25,930 nucleotides of DNA, from the IMG/VR virus record IMGVR_UViG_3300030012_002345, positions 1-25,930 of that record; one strand, given 5' to 3'. Of this stretch, positions 3,307 to 23,450 are shown in pieces. A program made the position numbers and the translations under genes. Under the pieces are notes generated by a model that saw nothing but the letters and a program-made list of their open reading frames with translations, had not been told where the DNA came from and searched no databases. Numbering within the stretch: position 1 is the first letter of the stretch; each line of letters starts with the position of its first letter. This DNA is from a virus.

Positions 3307-4491
3307 ATGGGGTTACTAGATTTTATATTTCCTAAAAAGGAAAAAAGAAGCTATAATACAGATTTTATGGGTTCTTTAGGGATTTCATCATCTGGTGTTC
3401 CTGTTTCAGAAAAAGGTTCAATGCAACTTACTGCTGTGTGGGCAGCAGTCAATCTAATTGCTTCAACAGTTGCTTCATTACCTTTGAATGTGTATGAAAG
3501 AAAAAAAGATGGTTCAAAGGCAATTGCCTATGATTTACCCTTGCAACAATTGCTTCATTCAAATCCATCTGAAAGATACACAAGTTACCAATTCAGGAAC
3601 ACCATGATGGTTCATCTTTTATTATATGGAAATGCTTATGCAATAATCAACAGAAATGGGGGTGCAAAGCCTATAAGTTTTGATATAATTGACCCCACAT
3701 TGGTTTCAGCTTCTTTAGGTGAAGATAATAAAGTTTATTATGAAACAGGTGAAAGGACATATCAAAGCAAAGAAATTCTGCATTTTGTTGGACTGTCTTA
3801 TGATGGTTTGATTGGTAAATCACCGATAACTGCTTGTAGGGAAGCAATTGGTGTAGGACTTGCAACACAAAGATTTGGTTCAAAGTTTTTTGAAAATGGT
3901 GCAATCCTGCAAGGTGTATTACAAACAGATGGTAAATTGACTGAAGAATCAGCAGAGAGATTAAGAAAATCTTGGGGTAATAGATATGGGGGTTTGAATA
4001 ATACACATAAAACAGCAGTTCTTGAAGGGGGAGTTTCTTACAAACCAATTTCAGTTCCACTGGTGGATGCTGAGTTTGTTAAGAACAGACAGTTCACAAT
4101 TGCAGAAATAGCAAGGATTTTCAGAGTTCAACCACATATGCTTTTTGATTTGGAAAGGTCCACAAATAACAACATTGAACAACAATCAATTGAGTTTGTG
4201 ACTTACACTTTAATGCCTTATTTGGTTAACATAGAACAAGAGTTTAACAGAAAAGTATTTACTGCAAACGAAGAAAAAAACCACTGGACGAAATTTAGAG
4301 TATCAGAATTGTTAAGGGCAGATGTTGATTCAAGGGGTGATTATTACAGAAGATTATTTGAAATTGGTGTTCTGTCAGCAAATGAAATAAGAGAATTTGA
4401 AGATTTAAATAGATTAGAAGGTTTAGATGGACACTTTGTTCCACTTAACTTAGGTTCAATAGATAATACAAAAAAAAATGAAACTGAATAG
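3307..4491 (+). CDS. portal protein, HK97-like
   Basis: Portal protein, the dodecameric ring at one capsid vertex through which DNA enters and leaves and on which the terminase docks. The 394-residue length is typical of the HK97 and lambdoid portal family. Diagnostic stretches are AVWAAVNLIASTVASLPLNV (residues 44-63), the LLLYGNAYAIINRN segment, the IIDP strand, and the C-terminal ERSTNNNIEQQSIEFVTYTL region that forms the long crown and clip helices. The N-terminus (MGLLDFIFPKKEK) is also family-like. The gene ends overlapping the protease start by 14 bases. No obvious promoter lies in the 58-base gap before it, so expression probably reads through from promoter P1 or further upstream. Confidence 0.95.
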   Translation: MGLLDFIFPKKEKRSYNTDFMGSLGISSSGVPVSEKGSMQLTAVWAAVNLIASTVASLPLNVYERKKDGSKAIAYDLPLQQLLHSNPSERYTSYQFRNTMMVHLLLYGNAYAIINRNGGAKPISFDIIDPTLVSASLGEDNKVYYETGERTYQSKEILHFVGLSYDGLIGKSPITACREAIGVGLATQRFGSKFFENGAILQGVLQTDGKLTEESAERLRKSWGNRYGGLNNTHKTAVLEGGVSYKPISVPLVDAEFVKNRQFTIAEIARIFRVQPHMLFDLERSTNNNIEQQSIEFVTYTLMPYLVNIEQEFNRKVFTANEEKNHWTKFRVSELLRADVDSRGDYYRRLFEIGVLSANEIREFEDLNRLEGLDGHFVPLNLGSIDNTKKNETE

Positions 4492-6904: not shown

Positions 6905-7567
6905 ATGGCTAGATTAACAGTAAGTTCTGCTGCATCAACAGATATTTTAACAACAGCAGAAGTAAAAACACATTTGAGGGTTACAAATTCGGCAGAAGAT
7001 ACATATATTGGAACTTTGATTAAGGTTGCAACTTTGTATGCAGAAAAGTATTGTGCAGGAAATTTCATAAACACTACATACACCATGACTATGGAAGATT
7101 GGTCTGATGTGTTTGTTTCTAATTCAACACTAGGCACAACTTCAAATTTATTAAAATCTTACACTTACCCATTTGGTGGATATTTTTCCCCATATACAGG
7201 ATTAGCACAAATATTTTTACCAAAAGCACCTGTAAGTTCAGTAAGTTCAATTACTTACTTTGATAGTGATAATTCATCACAAACTTGGTCATCATCAAAT
7301 TATAATCTTATAAATCCTGAAAATCAAAAAGGATTCATTGAAAGTGTAGATGGTGCAGATTATCCATCAATATATTCAAGAGGTGATGCAATAACAGTTA
7401 CATTTGTTAGTGGATATGGTTCTGCTGCAAGTGATGTGCCTGAACCAATTAAACAGGCAGTTTTACTTATAATAGGCAACTTGTATGAAAAGAGGGAAGA
7501 TATGGTTAAAAGGATGCCAACAACATCAGAATATTTATTAGAACCATATAGAATTTTTGAATATTAG
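6905..7567 (+). CDS. head-tail connector (adaptor) protein
   Basis: Head-tail adaptor of the HK97 gp6 / SPP1 gp15 type, which sits as a ring below the portal. The N-terminal part has the helical LTTAEVKTHLRV motif (residues 16-27) and an EDTYIGTLIKVATLYAEKYCAGNF helix characteristic of these proteins. The C-terminus has the PEPIKQAVLLIIGNLYEKREDM helix. Between them is a strand-rich insert with LPKAPVSSVSSITYFDSDN, a feature of longer adaptors (220 residues here). It is placed directly after capsid and before head closure, as expected. Start: ATG at 6905, first after the terminator hairpin. Confidence 0.85.
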   Translation: MARLTVSSAASTDILTTAEVKTHLRVTNSAEDTYIGTLIKVATLYAEKYCAGNFINTTYTMTMEDWSDVFVSNSTLGTTSNLLKSYTYPFGGYFSPYTGLAQIFLPKAPVSSVSSITYFDSDNSSQTWSSSNYNLINPENQKGFIESVDGADYPSIYSRGDAITVTFVSGYGSAASDVPEPIKQAVLLIIGNLYEKREDMVKRMPTTSEYLLEPYRIFEY

Positions 7568-7939
7568 ATGGAAAAAGAATTACTAAAAGCAGGAAAATTA
7601 GATACTTATATTACCATCTACCAATTAACAAGAACACAGGATTCTTATGGGGGTTATTCTAAAAGCAGAAGTAGTTTGAAAAGTGTTTGGTCAATGGTGA
7701 TGCCTTATAAGGGAAAAGAAAAAGTTGAAAATGAAACTATTGTTTCCACAAACAAAGTTTCTTTTTTGGTAAGATGGGATGATGATTTGAATTTGGATTC
7801 ATCAACTATTTCACCTGAACAAAAATATCAAGTTCAATATTTAAGTAAATATTATGAAATTGATAGTGTGGAATATAATGGAAGGGGAATGGGAATTTTG
7901 ATTAATTGTTCATTCAAAGATGATGGAAGATTGGCTTAA
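7568..7939 (+). CDS. head closure / head-tail joining protein
   Basis: A 123-residue protein of the SPP1 gp16 / phage head-tail joining family, forming the valve ring between connector and tail. Visible family features are the N-terminal GKLDTYITIYQLTRTQDSYGGYS (the ITIY...TQDSYGG pattern), a WSMVMPYKGKEK segment and a C-terminal strand pair (KYYEIDSVEYNGRGMGILINCSF). Its ATG follows the connector stop with no gap, so translation is likely coupled. A 213-base noncoding stretch follows. Confidence 0.85.
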   Translation: MEKELLKAGKLDTYITIYQLTRTQDSYGGYSKSRSSLKSVWSMVMPYKGKEKVENETIVSTNKVSFLVRWDDDLNLDSSTISPEQKYQVQYLSKYYEIDSVEYNGRGMGILINCSFKDDGRLA

Positions 7940-8291: not shown

Positions 8292-8717
8292 ATGGCAAAA
8301 ATAATAGGACACGCAAAAATTGTAGGAATGGAAGATGTCATAAGAAGGTTGAAATTGTGTGATAATGATGCAAAAAAAAATAGATTATTAAGAAGGGTTT
8401 TGACCTTTGGTGCTTTTCCAATTTGGAAACAAATGAAACTTAATACACCAGTTAAAACAGGTAATTTGAAAAAGTCTATTTCAAGAATTGCAAGTAGGAA
8501 AAATGCTTTGGTTGCAGTAGGTGCAAGAGCAGGAAGAAGGGCAAAGTATGATGGTTATTATGTAAACTGGGTTGTGGAAGGACATAAAACAAGGGGTGGT
8601 GGACAAACAAAGGCAAATGATTTTATTTCACCTGCTTTTGAAAATAATAAAGAATTAGCAGTGAAAAGGATAGAAGATAAATTAATACAATTAGTAATTG
8701 AAAAAAATTTTAGATGA
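8292..8717 (+). CDS. HK97 gp10-like neck/tail completion protein
   Basis: Minor tail or neck protein of the HK97 gp10 family, needed to complete the tail end that meets the head. The 141 residues carry the family signature: MEDVIRRLKLC near the start, then TPVKTGNLKKSISR (residues 54-67, the conserved P-x-x-T-G-x-L-x-x-S motif), and a closing YYVNWVVEGHKTRGGGQTKANDFISPAFE with the FISPAFE element. Position between head closure and tail terminator is as expected. The stop overlaps the next start (ATGA). Confidence 0.85.
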   Translation: MAKIIGHAKIVGMEDVIRRLKLCDNDAKKNRLLRRVLTFGAFPIWKQMKLNTPVKTGNLKKSISRIASRKNALVAVGARAGRRAKYDGYYVNWVVEGHKTRGGGQTKANDFISPAFENNKELAVKRIEDKLIQLVIEKNFR

Positions 8718-9922
8718 GTATATCAAAGGCTATATATAAAATTTTATCATCTGAAACTGATTTGACATCATTGGTTTCAACAAGGATATTTCCATCTATA
8801 ATTCCACAGAATGAAAATTATCCTTCTTTGATGTATGAAATTAGAGATATTGAACCAATTGAAATAAAAGCAAGAAGGCATCCAAAATCAGAAGCAAGGA
8901 TTGTAATTGGTGTTCATGCCACCACATATGCAGATGTTCAAAATATATCAGATATAGTAGTTGCAACACTTGAAAGATATAAAGATGCAACAGATTATTC
9001 AACTGTTCCTTCAGGAATATCAGGAACACCACCAACAGCAGGATGTTCAATTGTTGAAGGATATTGGATTCAACAAGTTTTTTATGATAATAGCTTTGAC
9101 ATCTTTAATGACCAAATTAGAGTATTTGAAAAATATTTAGAATTTGATGTGAGATTTATGATAAATCCTGCTAGTATGGGTTCTTATGGTTGGTATACAG
9201 CAGGGATTGCAGGACTATTAAGAACCACAGGAAATGCAATTCCATCAGCAGATTTGGATAATATTGGAACATGGTATGATGGAAGTGGTGCAACTTCTTT
9301 GAATTTGACTGATGAATCAGCAACAAAGCCTGATTATTTTACAGAAGGATATTTAAATTTAAATCAAGGAACAGCAACACCATCCCACATTGGTTTATCA
9401 AATCAAGTAGAATTTACACAAGGCTGCACAATGTTTTTTATTTTACAAGAAAATACTGCGTTATCTGATTGGACTTTGTTTGCACTTGACAATGGTGAAT
9501 CAGGTTCAAATGCTTCTATTTTATATTTTAGGGCATCCAGTGGTTCATATTTTGCAAACTTACTTTGTAATGGAACAACAATTCTTTTTTATGGTGGAAG
9601 TTCACTTCCAACTTTAGCAAATAAAACTTATTTTGCTTTTTCTTGGGGTGGTTCATCAGATGAAACAGGAGAATGGGAAGTTATTGACCCAAACAATGCA
9701 ACATATTACAACAAAAATGAATATAATGCAATTAGTGGTGGAACAGGAATGGGTAATATAAAATTCAAAAATATTGGTGCAACAAGTGTGACAACAGACC
9801 CTGACCCAAATGCATCAATGAATTTTTATGAAACAGTTATTTTTAACAAAAAACTAACCTTTGGTGGTGGTCAATATAATAGGATAAAAGATTATTTATT
9901 AAATAAACATAAATTGAATTAA
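8714..9922 (+). CDS. tail terminator (DUF3168-like) fused to a lectin-like domain
   Basis: Residues 1-150 look like the tail-completion/terminator family (DUF3168): MSISKAIYKILSSETDL, RIFPSIIPQNENYPSLMYEI, then VIGVHATTYADVQNISDIV and a final LEFDVRFMI strand. This part caps the tail tube at the neck. The gene does not stop there but runs to 402 residues. Residues about 155-402 are glycine-, serine- and aromatic-rich beta sequence with the pattern of a LamG/concanavalin-like domain: CTMFFILQEN (238-247), KTYFAFSWGGSSDETGEWEV, and the classic ending MNFYETVIFNKKLT...YNRIKDYLLNKHKL. Such domains bind glycans. A glycan-binding domain on the neck would decorate the virion. The domain call rests on pattern recognition without a search. 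Confidence 0.75.
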   Translation: MSISKAIYKILSSETDLTSLVSTRIFPSIIPQNENYPSLMYEIRDIEPIEIKARRHPKSEARIVIGVHATTYADVQNISDIVVATLERYKDATDYSTVPSGISGTPPTAGCSIVEGYWIQQVFYDNSFDIFNDQIRVFEKYLEFDVRFMINPASMGSYGWYTAGIAGLLRTTGNAIPSADLDNIGTWYDGSGATSLNLTDESATKPDYFTEGYLNLNQGTATPSHIGLSNQVEFTQGCTMFFILQENTALSDWTLFALDNGESGSNASILYFRASSGSYFANLLCNGTTILFYGGSSLPTLANKTYFAFSWGGSSDETGEWEVIDPNNATYYNKNEYNAISGGTGMGNIKFKNIGATSVTTDPDPNASMNFYETVIFNKKLTFGGGQYNRIKDYLLNKHKLN

Positions 9923-10134: not shown

Positions 10135-10566
10135 ATGGCAACAACAGGAATTTTTAATGGAACTGACCTGATATTAAAAGTAGATACATCAGGGGGTGGT
10201 TCACCAACATTATTAGGTGCTTCAACATCATGCACAGTGAGTTACAGCTTGGATACTTTTGAAACTACAAACAAAGATTCATCACATACAAAAGCATACT
10301 TACCTGCTGCACATGGATTCACGATGGATTGTGAAGCATTTTACACAACAGATGAAACAAATGCACCTGATAATTTAATGGCAGCACTAAGTGCAAGAAC
10401 TCAAATTGATGTAGAGTTCAACCAAGCATCAGCAACAACTGCTGATTATAAATATACAGGAAAAGCATATATAACATCATGCACATTAAATGCACCAAAT
10501 GAAGATGCTGCAACATACAGTATTTCATTACAAGGCACAGGTGCATTGACTATTGCAGCAAACTAA
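10135..10566 (+). CDS. major tail tube protein
   Basis: Major tail protein, which stacks as hexameric rings to make the tail tube. The 143 residues fit the TP901-1 family of tube proteins: a short N-terminal strand and loop (GIFNGTDLILKVD), TSCTVSYSLDTFETTNKDSS (the conserved strand followed by T-x-K-D), a GFTMDCEAFYTTDET strand, and a C-terminal AYITSCTLNAPNEDAATYSISLQGTG that matches the family's closing hairpin. It precedes the tail chaperone pair and tape measure, the canonical order. A weak inverted repeat and a T-rich stretch follow the stop and may lower read-through. Confidence 0.9.
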   Translation: MATTGIFNGTDLILKVDTSGGGSPTLLGASTSCTVSYSLDTFETTNKDSSHTKAYLPAAHGFTMDCEAFYTTDETNAPDNLMAALSARTQIDVEFNQASATTADYKYTGKAYITSCTLNAPNEDAATYSISLQGTGALTIAAN

Positions 10567-10633: not shown

Positions 10634-10981
10634 ATGAAAGAATTAAAAAAAATTGCAATAGGTGGTGAAATGCGACCTGTTCACTATGGATTTGCAACAC
10701 TGTCAGAATGGTGTGATTTGTGTAATTTAACAATGAATGATTTAACCAAGATTGGTGAAAACATGCCAATTTCAACAGCAATCAACATGGTTTTTTGTGG
10801 ATTGAAACATGGTGCAAGAAAATCAAAAAATGAATTTAAAATCACATTTGATGATGTTGCAGATTGGTTAGATAATGACCAACAAGCAATGACAGATGCA
10901 ATGCAAATTTTTAGTGATTCAATGTCGCAAAGAGTAAGCAAAAAAGGTCAAAAGTCAAAAAAGGTAGAGGGGGAAAAGTAA
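10634..10981 (+). CDS. tail assembly chaperone (gpG-like)
   Basis: Tail assembly chaperone that coats the tape measure during tail building, equivalent in position and logic to lambda gpG. The 115-residue product is acidic and helical in the middle (FATLSEWCDLCNLTMNDLTKIGE, FDDVADWLDNDQQAMTDAMQIF) with a basic tail (RVSKKGQKSKKVEGEK). Near its end the frame holds A AAA AAG (10957-10963) with a GC hairpin after it, the signal for -1 frameshifting. A fraction of ribosomes should make a 219-residue fusion: 110 residues of this ORF plus 109 from the -1 frame, ending at 11292. Unshifted ribosomes stop at 10981. Confidence 0.85.
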   Translation: MKELKKIAIGGEMRPVHYGFATLSEWCDLCNLTMNDLTKIGENMPISTAINMVFCGLKHGARKSKNEFKITFDDVADWLDNDQQAMTDAMQIFSDSMSQRVSKKGQKSKKVEGEK

Positions 10982-10995
10982 ATCCCCCCACCTTT
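10957..10995 (+). promoter_or_regulatory. programmed -1 ribosomal frameshift signal
   Basis: The slippery heptamer A AAA AAG occupies 10957-10963, in phase with the upstream frame (TCA AAA AAG). Five bases later GGGGG (10969-10973) pairs with CCCCC in 10984-10989 around a loop rich in A that contains the zero-frame stop. AAGGT (10961-10965) can also pair with ACCTT (10990-10994), lengthening the stem. The -1 frame is open from 10918 through 11292. This is the same heptamer as in E. coli dnaX and the expected place for the tail chaperone shift. Confidence 0.9.
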
Positions 10996-11025
10996 GATGA
11001 TTTCCTAAAAATAGGAATTGGACAA

Positions 11026-11292
11026 ATGGGAATGACTGAAGAAGAATTTTGGGATTTAACACCAAAAACATTCGGTCTAAAAAGTGAAGGATTTTTTGAG
11101 TTACTTGAAAAAAAAGAACAATTTGAATGGGAAAGGGTAAGATTTCAAACTGTTGCTTTAATCAATAGTGAAAGGAAAAAACACCAACAAATAAGACCAC
11201 AACAATTGGTCAAATTTGACTGGGAAAAAGTTGAAAGCAAAAAAAGTGAAAAAAGTAAAATTGATTATATAATTCATAAGGCAAAAAAATAA
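11026..11292 (+). CDS. tail assembly chaperone, downstream segment (gpT-like, -1 frame)
   Basis: This is the distal part of the tail chaperone fusion. The listed start is the first good ATG in this frame, but the frame is open back to 10918, upstream of the slippery site. The main product is therefore expected to be the frameshift fusion in which reading enters this frame at 10963 (GRGGKVNPPTFDDFLKI...). The segment has EEEFWDLTPKTFGL, a pattern common in these second chaperone domains (a small helix with W and a T-P step), a long EFWERVR-type helix and a basic tail. Separate initiation at 11026 cannot be excluded, though no special leader is present. The tape measure gene starts right after its stop. 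Confidence 0.8.
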   Translation: MGMTEEEFWDLTPKTFGLKSEGFFELLEKKEQFEWERVRFQTVALINSERKKHQQIRPQQLVKFDWEKVESKKSEKSKIDYIIHKAKK

Positions 11293-16340: not shown

Positions 16341-17144
16341 ATGAGTAGTCAAGTCAATTTTTATGGTGGTAAAATTTACAAAAAAACCCAAAAAACAATT
16401 TTTGGAAGTCAAGCTGATTTATATAGACAACAACAAGTCAATGTGGTCAGAGGTGGATTAAAAAATGAACAGGATAGAACTTGCATCACTACATTAACAG
16501 CAGATGCCAGTGGAACAACAACTTCACTGACTATTACAGCCATAGGATATAACACAATCAGAAAAGGTGATGAATTGTTTATTGTTAGCAAGGTTAATAA
16601 TTCAAAGCAAAAAATTGTAGTTTCACAGACACCATTAACAACAGACACAACTTTGCATATAACATCAACAAGTTTAGGACCATTTCCTTCAGGGTCATAT
16701 ATTTTTTTTAGCAATGCATTAATGAATCAAAGAATTGCAGGTGGATTGTTGCTTTCAATTGTAGATTTAACAAATGCAGAATATAAAAGTCTTGGTTCAA
16801 CAGAACAAACATTAGTTCCTGCTAATGCAAATGGATATATTTTTCCTTTGAATGTATGGGTTGAAACAACTGGTTATACTTCAGGGAGTGGGGAAAATTC
16901 CAGTAATTCTTTATATTTAAGATATAATGGGGGTAGTTCAAGCAATTATTTATCTGCTATAAGTAGATTCAATAAAAGGGTGAGGTCTAATGCAACATTT
17001 ATTTTTGATTTAACTGGTGTTTCAGGTAAAATACAAGGAAGTAGTGTTATAGGTGAAGCATTAGAGATTCAAGCAAGTGCAAATTTTACTGATAATGATT
17101 TTGGATTAAGAATATTTACACAATATCAAATGATAGGTTATTAA
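16341..17144 (+). CDS. tail-associated virion protein of unknown function
   Basis: A 267-residue protein two bases after the tail-tip gene and overlapping the following gene by one base. It begins MSSQVNFYGGKIYKKTQKT and contains a short beta domain (TLTADASGTTTSLTITAIGYNTIRKGDELFIVS) that looks like a small barrel with an I-x-K-G-D turn. A Ser/Gly-rich central part (GYTSGSGENSSNSLYLRYNGG) follows, then a strand-rich end. The composition matches tail fibre or tip accessory proteins. A receptor-binding or tip-decoration role is plausible but not shown. No chaperone or enzyme motif is seen. Confidence 0.65.
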   Translation: MSSQVNFYGGKIYKKTQKTIFGSQADLYRQQQVNVVRGGLKNEQDRTCITTLTADASGTTTSLTITAIGYNTIRKGDELFIVSKVNNSKQKIVVSQTPLTTDTTLHITSTSLGPFPSGSYIFFSNALMNQRIAGGLLLSIVDLTNAEYKSLGSTEQTLVPANANGYIFPLNVWVETTGYTSGSGENSSNSLYLRYNGGSSSNYLSAISRFNKRVRSNATFIFDLTGVSGKIQGSSVIGEALEIQASANFTDNDFGLRIFTQYQMIGY

Positions 17145-18178
17145 TGAAAATAAAAGAAACACATATCTATTTAATATTAATGCTTTTAGTTTTTGGACTA
17201 GGAACTTGCAGGTCACAAGGCTTTTTTGAATATGCCACATTTTATAGTTCAGTAAATATGAACACCAGTATGGTTGAAAGGCAGGATTTTGTGGCTACTT
17301 CAAAAGGTTATTCAGAAACAACAATTTTAAATGAATTTGATTATAATATTATATTTGGAATCAGGAAGGTTGCAAGGATGGATTTTGAACAGAAATTAGA
17401 AACATTTTATTATGGAAATGAAAAAAGCATTGCAGACAAAACAACACTATCAAGATTCAATGGGTGGGAATATTTATTCAATTATTCTTTTATAAGACAC
17501 AGGTCACAAAAATTTAATAATTCAGATTTTTGGCTTAGATATGTTAGTGATAAAATAATTGCAAAAGCACAAGTGAAAAAAGATGACATGAGGGATTTAA
17601 GTTTTAAATCCTTTGATTTAAGATATAGAATAAATAAAGGTGCTTTAGACATAAGTTTTGGTGGTGTAATTAGAAGGCATAATGCATACCATATAAATCC
17701 AATAGAACAAATATGGGAAAATGGCGAAAGTTCTTTTCAACAATTAGCACAGTCATTTGGATATAACACAAATCCAGTTCAGGGGAATCAGCATTGGTAT
17801 AATGGTTCACAACTAATTGCAACATCAAATGATGAATTTTATAAACATTATTTTGGTGCAGCAATAGCACAATATAATAGAAACTATTTGGATGCATTAG
17901 GTGGGCAAAATGAATTATCTTTTGTGATTGGATTGTCTTATTATTACTATAAAGAAAATTACTGGATTTTAACATGGGCAAATGCAATGCCAATTCACAA
18001 AAGGTTAAGTAAATATAGTCATCAATATACAGATTCAGAAATTGATTTGGATTTGGGTTTTGTTGCAGGGTGGAAAATAACAAAAAACTTTGGAATTTTT
18101 ATTGAAGGCACTTTCATTAGATTTTGGGAAAAAGAAATCTTTGATTGTCGCTTTGGTTTTAACTATTTAATATTTTAA
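17144..18178 (+). CDS. predicted outer-membrane beta-barrel protein with signal peptide
   Basis: 344 residues with an N-terminal signal peptide: a basic start, hydrophobic core LILMLLVFGLGTC, then RSQ before GFFEY. C22 lies near the end of the hydrophobic core but the preceding LGT is not a standard lipobox, so cleavage by signal peptidase I after SQ is preferred. The mature part is full of amphipathic strands with aromatic ends (LNEFDYNIIFGIRKVARMDF, SFKSFDLRYRI, ELSFVIGLSYYYYKENYWIL, NFGIFIEGTFIRFW) and ends in phenylalanine (FGFNYLIF), the usual C-terminal signal of outer-membrane barrels. I recall related proteins in other marine phages, where they are unassigned; this is from memory. It could change the host surface, for example block superinfection, or be a virion part. 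Confidence 0.72.
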   Translation: MKIKETHIYLILMLLVFGLGTCRSQGFFEYATFYSSVNMNTSMVERQDFVATSKGYSETTILNEFDYNIIFGIRKVARMDFEQKLETFYYGNEKSIADKTTLSRFNGWEYLFNYSFIRHRSQKFNNSDFWLRYVSDKIIAKAQVKKDDMRDLSFKSFDLRYRINKGALDISFGGVIRRHNAYHINPIEQIWENGESSFQQLAQSFGYNTNPVQGNQHWYNGSQLIATSNDEFYKHYFGAAIAQYNRNYLDALGGQNELSFVIGLSYYYYKENYWILTWANAMPIHKRLSKYSHQYTDSEIDLDLGFVAGWKITKNFGIFIEGTFIRFWEKEIFDCRFGFNYLIF

Positions 18179-18380: not shown

Positions 18381-18671
18381 ATGGCAAAAGAAGTATCAGA
18401 AAATACAAAAGTTCAACTCTCATTCAAGACCCTTGCAACTATTATTGGAATTGTAGCAGGATTCATTGGGATGTATTATAGTTTAAGTATGGAAATTGAA
18501 CAAGCAAAGATTTTGCCAGTGGTGGAAATCCCTGAACCTGAAATCACAGCAACAGAATTTCAACTTAAAATTGATTTAATATCAAATACTGTCATGAATA
18601 ATGCAGAAAAACTAGATAAAATAGAAACGCAGATGGAAAAAATTGAGGAAAGAGTATATGAACTGAAATGA
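18381..18671 (+). CDS. membrane-anchored coiled-coil protein
   Basis: 96 residues with a short cytoplasmic start, one membrane helix (TLATIIGIVAGFIGMYYSL, residues 17-35), then an extended PVVEIPEPEITATEF region and a C-terminal coiled coil (NTVMNNAEKLDKIETQMEKIEERVYELK). One helix plus coiled coil resembles an inner-membrane spanin component or a holin regulator, but there is no lipobox partner that would make a spanin pair clear. It starts one base after the previous stop and overlaps the next gene by four bases, so it belongs to the same envelope operon. Confidence 0.6.
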   Translation: MAKEVSENTKVQLSFKTLATIIGIVAGFIGMYYSLSMEIEQAKILPVVEIPEPEITATEFQLKIDLISNTVMNNAEKLDKIETQMEKIEERVYELK

Positions 18672-19045
18672 GATACTTAATAAATATATTATTGTGGGTG
18701 CTTTGCATCCCTTGTTACAGTCAGGACTTTATATATAGCAAAGATTTTAATAAAATAAACAATTCAAACCAACCATTTGTAATTGAATTTTGGGCAGAAT
18801 TTAATGACAAAAACAAGTGGCAAAAATTAGGTGAATTGAAAAAGTGTGGCATATATCGGTCCTGTATTATTGCTAATAAAAAATTAGCAGATGAATTTGG
18901 GATTAAAGTATTGCCCACAATAATATTATTTAACAATAGAAAAGAAGTTTGCAGATGGGAAGGGAATTTGATGTTTGAATTATTATTAGCAAAAAAAGAT
19001 GTGCAAATAAAAATAGATAGTATAATCCTAGATAAATTTAAATAA
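18668..19045 (+). CDS. secreted thioredoxin-fold protein lacking the CXXC active site
   Basis: 125 residues with a signal peptide (YLINILLWVLCIPCYSQ, cut likely after SQ at residue 19). The mature part follows the thioredoxin plan: strand FVIEFWAEF (37-45, like the FWAEWCGPC strand), first helix, strand, helix ANKKLADEFGIKVLPT with cis-proline P83 in VLPT, then IILFNNRKEVCRWEG as the last two strands. Where CGPC should be it reads NDKN (46-49), so ordinary disulfide exchange is not possible. Three mature cysteines remain (C60, C66, C95); C60 and C66 are five residues apart. It may be a periplasmic binding or chaperone protein acting on host thiol-redox proteins or on lysis proteins. It lies within the lysis block, overlapping its neighbours. 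Confidence 0.68.
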   Translation: MRYLINILLWVLCIPCYSQDFIYSKDFNKINNSNQPFVIEFWAEFNDKNKWQKLGELKKCGIYRSCIIANKKLADEFGIKVLPTIILFNNRKEVCRWEGNLMFELLLAKKDVQIKIDSIILDKFK

Positions 19046-19539
19046 TGTTATTGACAAAAAATTTTACTTTGCAAGAAATGGAATTTTCTGCAACAGCTAC
19101 AAGGTTACAAATTCCAAACAGAGCAGATAAAAAAATAATTGAAAATCTTTATTTTTTGTGCAAAGATGTTTTGCAACCATTAAGAAATGCAATTGGAAAA
19201 CCTATTAAGATTACTTCAGGATATAGAAGTTCAGAATTAAATCAAGTCATCAACAATGGTTCTAAAAGAATCAGTGACCATATGCATGGATTTGCAGCAG
19301 ACATTCAATTAATATATGATAATGAAGTTAAAAATGATATATTATTTAATACAATTTTAGATTTAGATTTACCCTTTAAGCAAATGATTTGGGAATTTGG
19401 TGACAGATTTCCACATGGTTCACCTGCTTGGATTCATATTTCGCACAGCAGGAAAAATGTAAAAAAACAAATACTTGAAGCATTTAAGGATAATGGAAAG
19501 ACTTATTATAAAATAATAAAAAAAGATATTTCATTATGA
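19045..19539 (+). CDS. M15 family peptidase, predicted endolysin
   Basis: 164 residues of the peptidase M15_3 type, zinc enzymes that cut peptidoglycan cross-links (D-Ala-D-Ala or L-Ala-D-Glu bonds). The signature is complete: ITSGYRSSELN (56-66), SDHMHGFAADI (77-87) giving zinc ligands H79 and D86, and WIHIS (129-133) giving the third ligand H131. There is no signal peptide, so release needs the holin next door. Its first base is the last base of the thioredoxin-like gene and its stop overlaps the holin start, a compact lysis cassette. In some phages such enzymes sit in the virion; position beside a holin favours lysis. Confidence 0.88.
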   Translation: MLLTKNFTLQEMEFSATATRLQIPNRADKKIIENLYFLCKDVLQPLRNAIGKPIKITSGYRSSELNQVINNGSKRISDHMHGFAADIQLIYDNEVKNDILFNTILDLDLPFKQMIWEFGDRFPHGSPAWIHISHSRKNVKKQILEAFKDNGKTYYKIIKKDISL

Positions 19540-22646: not shown

Positions 22647-23095
22647 AAAGACTTATTGATATAGTTTGCTATTTCAATAATATAAACAAAAAAAAGTTTT
22701 ATTCATTAAGTGCAAAATTAAATGTGTTGGATTGCAGAATTGTCATTGCATCTATTTTGCATTATGAATTGAAAAAACCTATTGATGAAATAAGTGATGC
22801 AATGTCAAAAGAACCTGCAACAGTTCTTCATTATTTAGAGGACCACAGCAATCAGTATCAAGACATTAATCATTATACTAAGTTATATGACAACACATTA
22901 TCACAGTATCTTAAACACAAAGATGATACATTCAGCAGTGATGTTGAAGAAATGATTTTGAAAACTAATTATGATTTAGAACTTGAAAAAAGATTAGAAA
23001 AAATATTAAATGAAAATACCAAGCTGCAACACATGCTTGAAAGGGAAAAAATAAAAAACAGAAACATAAACAAAAAATTTAAAAACTATGCATGA
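22628..23095 (+). CDS. DnaA domain IV-like protein without an ATPase domain
   Basis: 155 residues. Residues 7-90 follow the DNA-binding domain of the initiator DnaA: a first helix with IDIVCYFNNINKKKFYSL (the V-x-x-Y-F-x-I segment), the next helix beginning CRIVIASILHYELKKPIDEI (equivalent to R-x-I-A-x-x-L in DnaA) and then SKEPATVLHYLEDHSNQYQ, matching the R-x-H-T-T-V-L-H-A-x-x-K signature though with E-P-A in place of R-D-H. The C-terminus is a coiled coil (LEKRLEKILNENTKLQHMLEREK). No Walker motifs are present, so it would bind origin DNA but not form the ATPase filament. It may recruit host replication proteins. Confidence 0.62.
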   Translation: MEGINLKRLIDIVCYFNNINKKKFYSLSAKLNVLDCRIVIASILHYELKKPIDEISDAMSKEPATVLHYLEDHSNQYQDINHYTKLYDNTLSQYLKHKDDTFSSDVEEMILKTNYDLELEKRLEKILNENTKLQHMLEREKIKNRNINKKFKNYA

Positions 23096-23450
23096 TATAA
23101 ATATTACTGGAAAGGTTGTAAAAGTTAAACCAATTCAAATCATCAAAACAAAAAATGGAGAATATAGAAAACAAAACTTCATTGTGAAATTACATGATAA
23201 ATATGAAAACTTTATTGAATTCACAATACCTCAAAAAAGATTAGATTTTATTAATGTAAATGAAAATGATTGGGTGGATGTAAAATTCTTTATAAATGGA
23301 AAACAATGGAATGATAAAATAATTCATAATTTCAATGCAATAAAGGTTGATGTAAAAGATTATAAAACAGAATCAGATGTTAGTTATACATCAAGTGAAA
23401 ATGTTGAATATAATGAACCTAAACAACCTGAAGATGATTTACCTTTTTAA
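23088..23450 (+). CDS. ssb: single-stranded DNA-binding protein, DUF3127-type OB fold
   Basis: 120 residues. The N-terminal 85 residues fit an OB fold: ITGKVVKVKPIQIIKTKNGEYRKQNFIVKL (two strands with the K-N-G-E-Y-R-K-Q turn), then EFTIPQKRLDFINVNENDWVDVKFFINGKQW and IHNFNAIKVD. This is the layout of DUF3127, a family concentrated in Bacteroidota. The tail is acidic and ends DDLPF, like the C-terminal tip that SSB proteins use to dock partners. It overlaps the previous gene by eight bases. The role is ssDNA coating during replication and recombination and probably partner recruitment through the tip. Its presence supports the host assignment. Confidence 0.82.
   Translation: MHDINITGKVVKVKPIQIIKTKNGEYRKQNFIVKLHDKYENFIEFTIPQKRLDFINVNENDWVDVKFFINGKQWNDKIIHNFNAIKVDVKDYKTESDVSYTSSENVEYNEPKQPEDDLPF

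Follow-up and report, generated by a model that had tools for sequence, protein, structure and literature searches.

An uncultured siphophage tail terminator fused to a swappable concanavalin-A-like domain, a candidate adhesin at the virus neck

The window analysed here is the whole stretch of 25,930 nucleotides of a virus record (25.9 kb, G+C 30%), in which the gene at 8714-9922 (plus strand) encodes a siphophage tail terminator continuing into a concanavalin-A (ConA)-like jelly roll. Our computational analysis shows both folds, their fusion in a single gene, the recurrence of such fusions, and the swapping and presence or absence of the lectin-fold part between related phages. The explanation that we favour, and hold to be probable, is that the added domain acts as an accessory adhesin, present in six copies at the neck and exchanged by recombination; its outward exposure, glycan binding and role in adsorption are what we infer.

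ORF and profile scans of the window revealed siphophage head and tail genes in the standard order, i.e. terminase, portal, protease, capsid, adaptor, head closure, HK97-gp10-like, gene 8714-9922, tail tube, chaperone pair and tape measure. The features around the neck are as follows.

6905..7567, plus strand: head-tail adaptor gene (PF05135, phrog_442)
7568..7939, plus strand: head closure (stopper) gene (PF05521, phrog_25)
8292..8717, plus strand: HK97-gp10-like / tail completion (Neck1) gene (PF04883, phrog_5), its stop overlapping the start of the terminator gene by 4 bases
8714..9160, plus strand: tail terminator domain, residues 1-149 (phrog_347; AlphaFold2 model and PDB terminator matches; alignment with plain 132-133 aa terminators)
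9161..9844, plus strand: predicted ConA-like jelly-roll domain, residues 150-377, the variable part (AlphaFold2 model, Foldseek, VIA; identity and tree comparison)
9845..9922, plus strand: conserved C-terminal tail, residues 378-402 (NKKLTFGGGQYNRIKDYLLNKHKLN), and stop (identity in 12 homologues, dN/dS)
10135..10566, plus strand: tail tube (major tail) protein, 143 aa (PF06199 over residues 7-139, phrog_1407)

The fusion gene is a single open frame of 402 codons with an ATG start. Searches baited with this gene and with the tube protein recovered complete copies from about 15 metagenome datasets, giving 12 distinct full-length fusions including that of the window (397-412 aa), every one in a single frame. 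Since homologous single ORFs occur in that many datasets, an assembly or chimeric fusion was ruled out; the sequence-only reading, which had worried that relatives might be two separate genes, proposed a fusion that is genuine.

Residues 1-149 have the fold and the place of a tail terminator, in agreement with what had been supposed for residues 1-150. The profile phrog_347 ('tail terminator') matches residues 1-91 (E=4.2e-7), PF11367 gives E=0.0023 at 18.5 bits, below its cut-off of 24.5, and residues 1-149 can be aligned with plain proteins of 132-133 aa from more distant phages whose genes stand in the same order. For residues 1-153, an AlphaFold2 model was built with 20 relatives (mean pLDDT 79.1), and its best PDB matches are mostly phage terminators: RcGTA (6tba, Z 15.2, 126 residues, 2.5 A), Bxb1 (Z 14.9), Douge (14.1), T5 p142 (12.4) and lambda gpU (11.5), with the Mu terminator also among the matches. 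Cultured phages gave only weak matches, to the N-terminal part of the protein. Siphophage terminators such as lambda gpU, SPP1 gp17, T5 p142 and RcGTA (PF11367/phrog_347) resemble residues 1-149 in fold, and their genes lie between the HK97-gp10-like and tube genes as in the window, where a position between head completion and tube genes fits a siphophage tail terminator. However, the classic proteins end near residue 130-160, whereas the window's adds about 250 residues of lectin fold. By analogy, we infer from fold family and gene order that the window's terminator would form a hexamer and sit at the neck.

Gene order does not predict the location of the T5 tail completion protein p143 (PMC11784142), and a terminator-fold protein sited elsewhere, e.g. 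at the tail tip, would turn the lectin domain into an ordinary tip adhesin. However, p143 is a different protein, terminators of the same fold (T5 p142, RcGTA, Douge) lie at the head-proximal end, and Pfam and PHROG profiles recognise no other terminator in the neck cluster of the window; we regard such a location as the least probable of the alternatives considered here.

The remaining part, residues 150-402, has no sequence match in Pfam, PHROG or PDB. In the full-chain AlphaFold2 model (12 sequences, mean pLDDT 62.6, moderate confidence) residues 150-200 are weak, pLDDT is mostly 70-89 from residue 210 on, and this part is modelled as a beta sandwich, i.e. a ConA-like two-sheet jelly roll. 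The models contain two domains, one with a lectin fold, and not the single continuous non-lectin fold that had been named as evidence against the fusion. Foldseek matched the jelly roll to a legume lectin (3ujo, E 3e-6) and also to a lichenase; the best VIA match was the Pan3 cyanophage tailspike (9vyh_p, Z 16.2, 216 residues, 3.3 A), followed by the binding domains of clostridial neurotoxins in their jelly-roll part; numerous viral-library proteins named 'Concanavalin A-like lectin' also match the model of the C-terminal part. The expectation of about 250 extra lectin-type residues is borne out by these matches, and the likeness to LamG that came with it holds at the level of fold but not of sequence: Pfam Laminin G and LamG profiles matched none of the 12 members of the window's kind (type I) up to E 10, thus the domain was filed at fold level only. 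The ConA fold is also found in non-sugar-binding proteins and enzymes, and the model-based matches would indicate a fold only, from which a shared function or ligand does not follow.

The C-terminal tail (residues 378-402) comprises the end of the last strand and the helix of the jelly-roll domain and is 71-100% identical across all 12 homologues. Between the window and homologue L003, its dN is 0.05 at dS 1.3 (simple counting, few pairs), which indicates that conservation of the tail is not simply due to recent exchange.

Decorated terminators are not confined to the window. Terminators from all loci amount to 69 distinct complete ORFs in a bait-biased census, 33 of them plain (129-133 aa, one called 160) and 36 extended (380-423 aa). 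Besides the 12 distinct ORFs of type I, 23 distinct ORFs of type II join the terminator to a ConA-type, PF09206-like domain; among the 19 scanned, PF11367 matched all (54.5 bits in L155), PF09206 matched 17 and Laminin_G_3 one. Type III is one ORF found on two contigs (L073 3469-4740 and L098 4299-5570) and combines PF11367 (46 bits), fn3 and the C-type-lectin-like Lcl_C, all above Pfam cut-offs. The decorated terminator that the sequence-only reading pointed out is real but does not stand alone, since homologous terminators carry lectin-like extensions of two or more other kinds.

In cultured phages, the proteins matched by type II lectin domains are tail, structural or hypothetical ones. A common sequence origin with the type I domains was not established by hhalign profile comparison (probability 2.6, E 0.018, 67 columns around a shared WYD.SG motif), and as the two were not joined, separate acquisitions are the simplest reading; at least two, and probably three, would have taken place on homologous terminators. 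We also considered as decorated terminators the LamG proteins encoded directly ahead of the tube gene of L022 and L034, in which profile search found no terminator domain.

The lichenase among the Foldseek matches, together with a match of the type II domain to an arabinofuranosidase family, raises the question of whether the jelly roll is a glycan-cleaving enzyme at the neck. This is very improbable, since the type II match is limited to the start of that family, about 75 of 315 profile positions, and D316 is the sole invariant acidic residue of the type I domain (positions mixing D and E aside), which argues against an enzyme.

Sequence comparison shows the lectin-fold domain to be a cassette exchanged between near-identical phages. 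Within type II, median identity is 93% for the terminator domain, 32% for the ConA domain and 65% for the last ~24 residues, and the loci, spanning L155-L181, have a recombination hot spot within one gene. Two of them, L162 and L176, are ~90% identical in DNA between the left end of the locus and base 3386 and again between 4088 and the right end; the lectin-coding stretch alone is unaligned, and the nearest flanking structural proteins are 95-99% identical. Loci L179 and L183 are colinear on both sides, and the terminator of L183 is plain (129 aa). In type I, the terminator domains of L011 and L014 are 95% identical and their jelly rolls 37%, and L003 joins a window-like terminator domain to a jelly roll like that of L018. 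Trees of terminator and lectin domains conflict (AU p 8e-5, 1e-68 and 1e-7), where the groups were named after the trees were seen and one further group was compatible. Divergence in type I is block-like, not limited to single codons, and no reverse transcriptase, the sign of a diversity-generating retroelement, was found among the ORFs scanned, which were part of all ORFs in a record that may be a fragment.

Exchange of this kind bears on another possibility, that the domain packs on the stopper, the portal rim or the first tube ring as a structural collar and stabilises the head-tail joint with no sugar binding. The strongly conserved C-terminal tail fits a fixed packing contact, and added domains of some terminators have structural roles, e.g. 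sheath contact (PMC11784142). However, packing predicts co-variation with the partners, whereas the domain is ~30% identical or absent while its presumed partners are 90-99% identical, and we consider a collar unlikely. Together, a ring-forming part that stays constant, a lectin-fold part that varies and an end that is conserved are the features to be expected of an exchangeable adhesin on a fixed scaffold.

Glycan-binding decorations are known from other siphophage virions. In 936 phages, carbohydrate-binding modules occur on the neck passage structure (NPS), the tube protein and Dit, and cell binding has been shown for some (PMC6669499); in Douge, capsid and tube have Ig-like domains and a carbohydrate-binding decoration with experimental binding, and the accessible part of that report describes no such decoration on the terminator (PMC13033339). 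The tube protein of the window is without a decoration domain of its own, PF06199 spanning residues 7-139 of 143.

Closest in location is the NPS of 936 phages and TP901-1, with carbohydrate-binding modules shown at the neck (PMC6669499, PMC10747895). As in the window, variable C-terminal modules follow a constant N-terminal part, and the last residues are conserved in some groups. However, the NPS is a long fibre protein in its own right, with a coiled coil and a BppU-like N-terminus, whereas the window's module is placed directly on the terminator ring protein, whose N-terminal domain is a terminator and whose model has no long helix. The window protein is not an NPS protein, yet it may work similarly.

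The tail tube extensions (TpeX) and the evolved Dit of 936 phages and the Ig-like domains of Douge likewise combine a core virion protein with a C-terminal or inserted glycan-binding domain, that of the window being predicted (PMC6669499, PMC13033339), but their carriers are other than the terminator. Moreover, TpeX is made by programmed frameshift, whereas in the window the reading frame runs on through the fusion, which would put the lectin-fold domain on each copy of the protein. The larger terminators of myophages and contractile injection systems (e.g. PVC16, T4 gp15) also add extra sequence to the terminator fold. The paper on the T5 terminator points to bigger terminators bearing additional domains, for which it cites contact with the sheath and duplication of the terminator fold (PMC11784142); these extras are not described as a lectin fold. 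The open-access literature that we searched contained no report of a lectin-bearing terminator, which does not by itself prove that there is none. Thus, the kind of decoration, glycan-binding, is already known and the carrier is new, and the swapping pattern makes the case more interesting than a single fusion.

Anatomy and swapping would look no different if the decoration had diversified for reasons other than host choice, such as binding of free polysaccharide, mucus or particles, or escape from host decoys or capsule, and types I-III are all binding-type folds. We judge this quite unlikely, because the siphophage decorations tested to date bind host cell glycans (PMC6669499, PMC13033339).

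Several other features of the window were recorded. The tail assembly chaperone pair (10634-11292, plus strand) has overlapping frames with the slippery GGGGGAAAAG immediately ahead of the first stop, and relatives have GGGGGGAAAG, hence a programmed -1 frameshift is likely. A 344-aa protein (17144-18178, plus strand) has a signal-peptide-like start, alternating aromatic strands and a final F; judged by eye it resembles an outer-membrane beta barrel, and the Pfam scan gave no match for it. An outer-membrane protein encoded by a phage would be noteworthy, e.g. as a superinfection block. A 125-aa thioredoxin-fold protein with a signal-peptide-like start (18668-19045, plus strand; PF00085, 27.4 bits) is encoded next to an M15 peptidase endolysin gene (19045-19539). 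The starts of most structural genes (e.g. 535, 5579, 8714 and 13849) have A-rich leaders only and no Shine-Dalgarno-like motif, which together with a DUF3127 gene at 23088-23450 gives a weak hint of a Bacteroidota host; two scans of genome contigs confirmed neither the domain nor the tube protein in prophage or host genomes.

In the favoured explanation, an accessory adhesin at the neck, six terminator domains would assemble into a ring closing the tail tube and linking it to the stopper; as the C-terminus of each continues into the ConA-like domain, six lectin-fold domains would be displayed at the neck. Their proposed role is that of accessory adhesins, multivalent and of low affinity, through which the virion would cling to glycans of cell surfaces or of the environment ahead of, or alongside, the receptor step at the tail tip. 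The lectin-fold domain would be dispensable for assembly across related phages, and cassettes could be exchanged via conserved flanks, with the terminator domain upstream and the C-terminal tail and tube genes downstream, such that exchange may adjust which sugars are recognised to suit the local host.

In uncultured phages, receptor-binding proteins are difficult to identify. Tail terminators are regarded as small, conserved caps for assembly. Here, homologous terminators carry three kinds of sugar-binding-type extension that are swapped or absent between near-identical phages, a pattern suggesting that the neck gives the virus a second hold, so far unrecognised, on sugars of the host or the environment. 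If true, glycan recognition would have a new site on the virion, and host adaptation of uncultured phages a marker open to direct testing. More tentatively, and as a conjecture that we would place somewhat short of even chances, the terminator may be a general neck display platform in several uncultured lineages, with the lectin cassette among the fastest-changing host-interaction parts of the virion; the host or habitat that a strain prefers would then depend in part on the head end of the tail and not on the tip alone.
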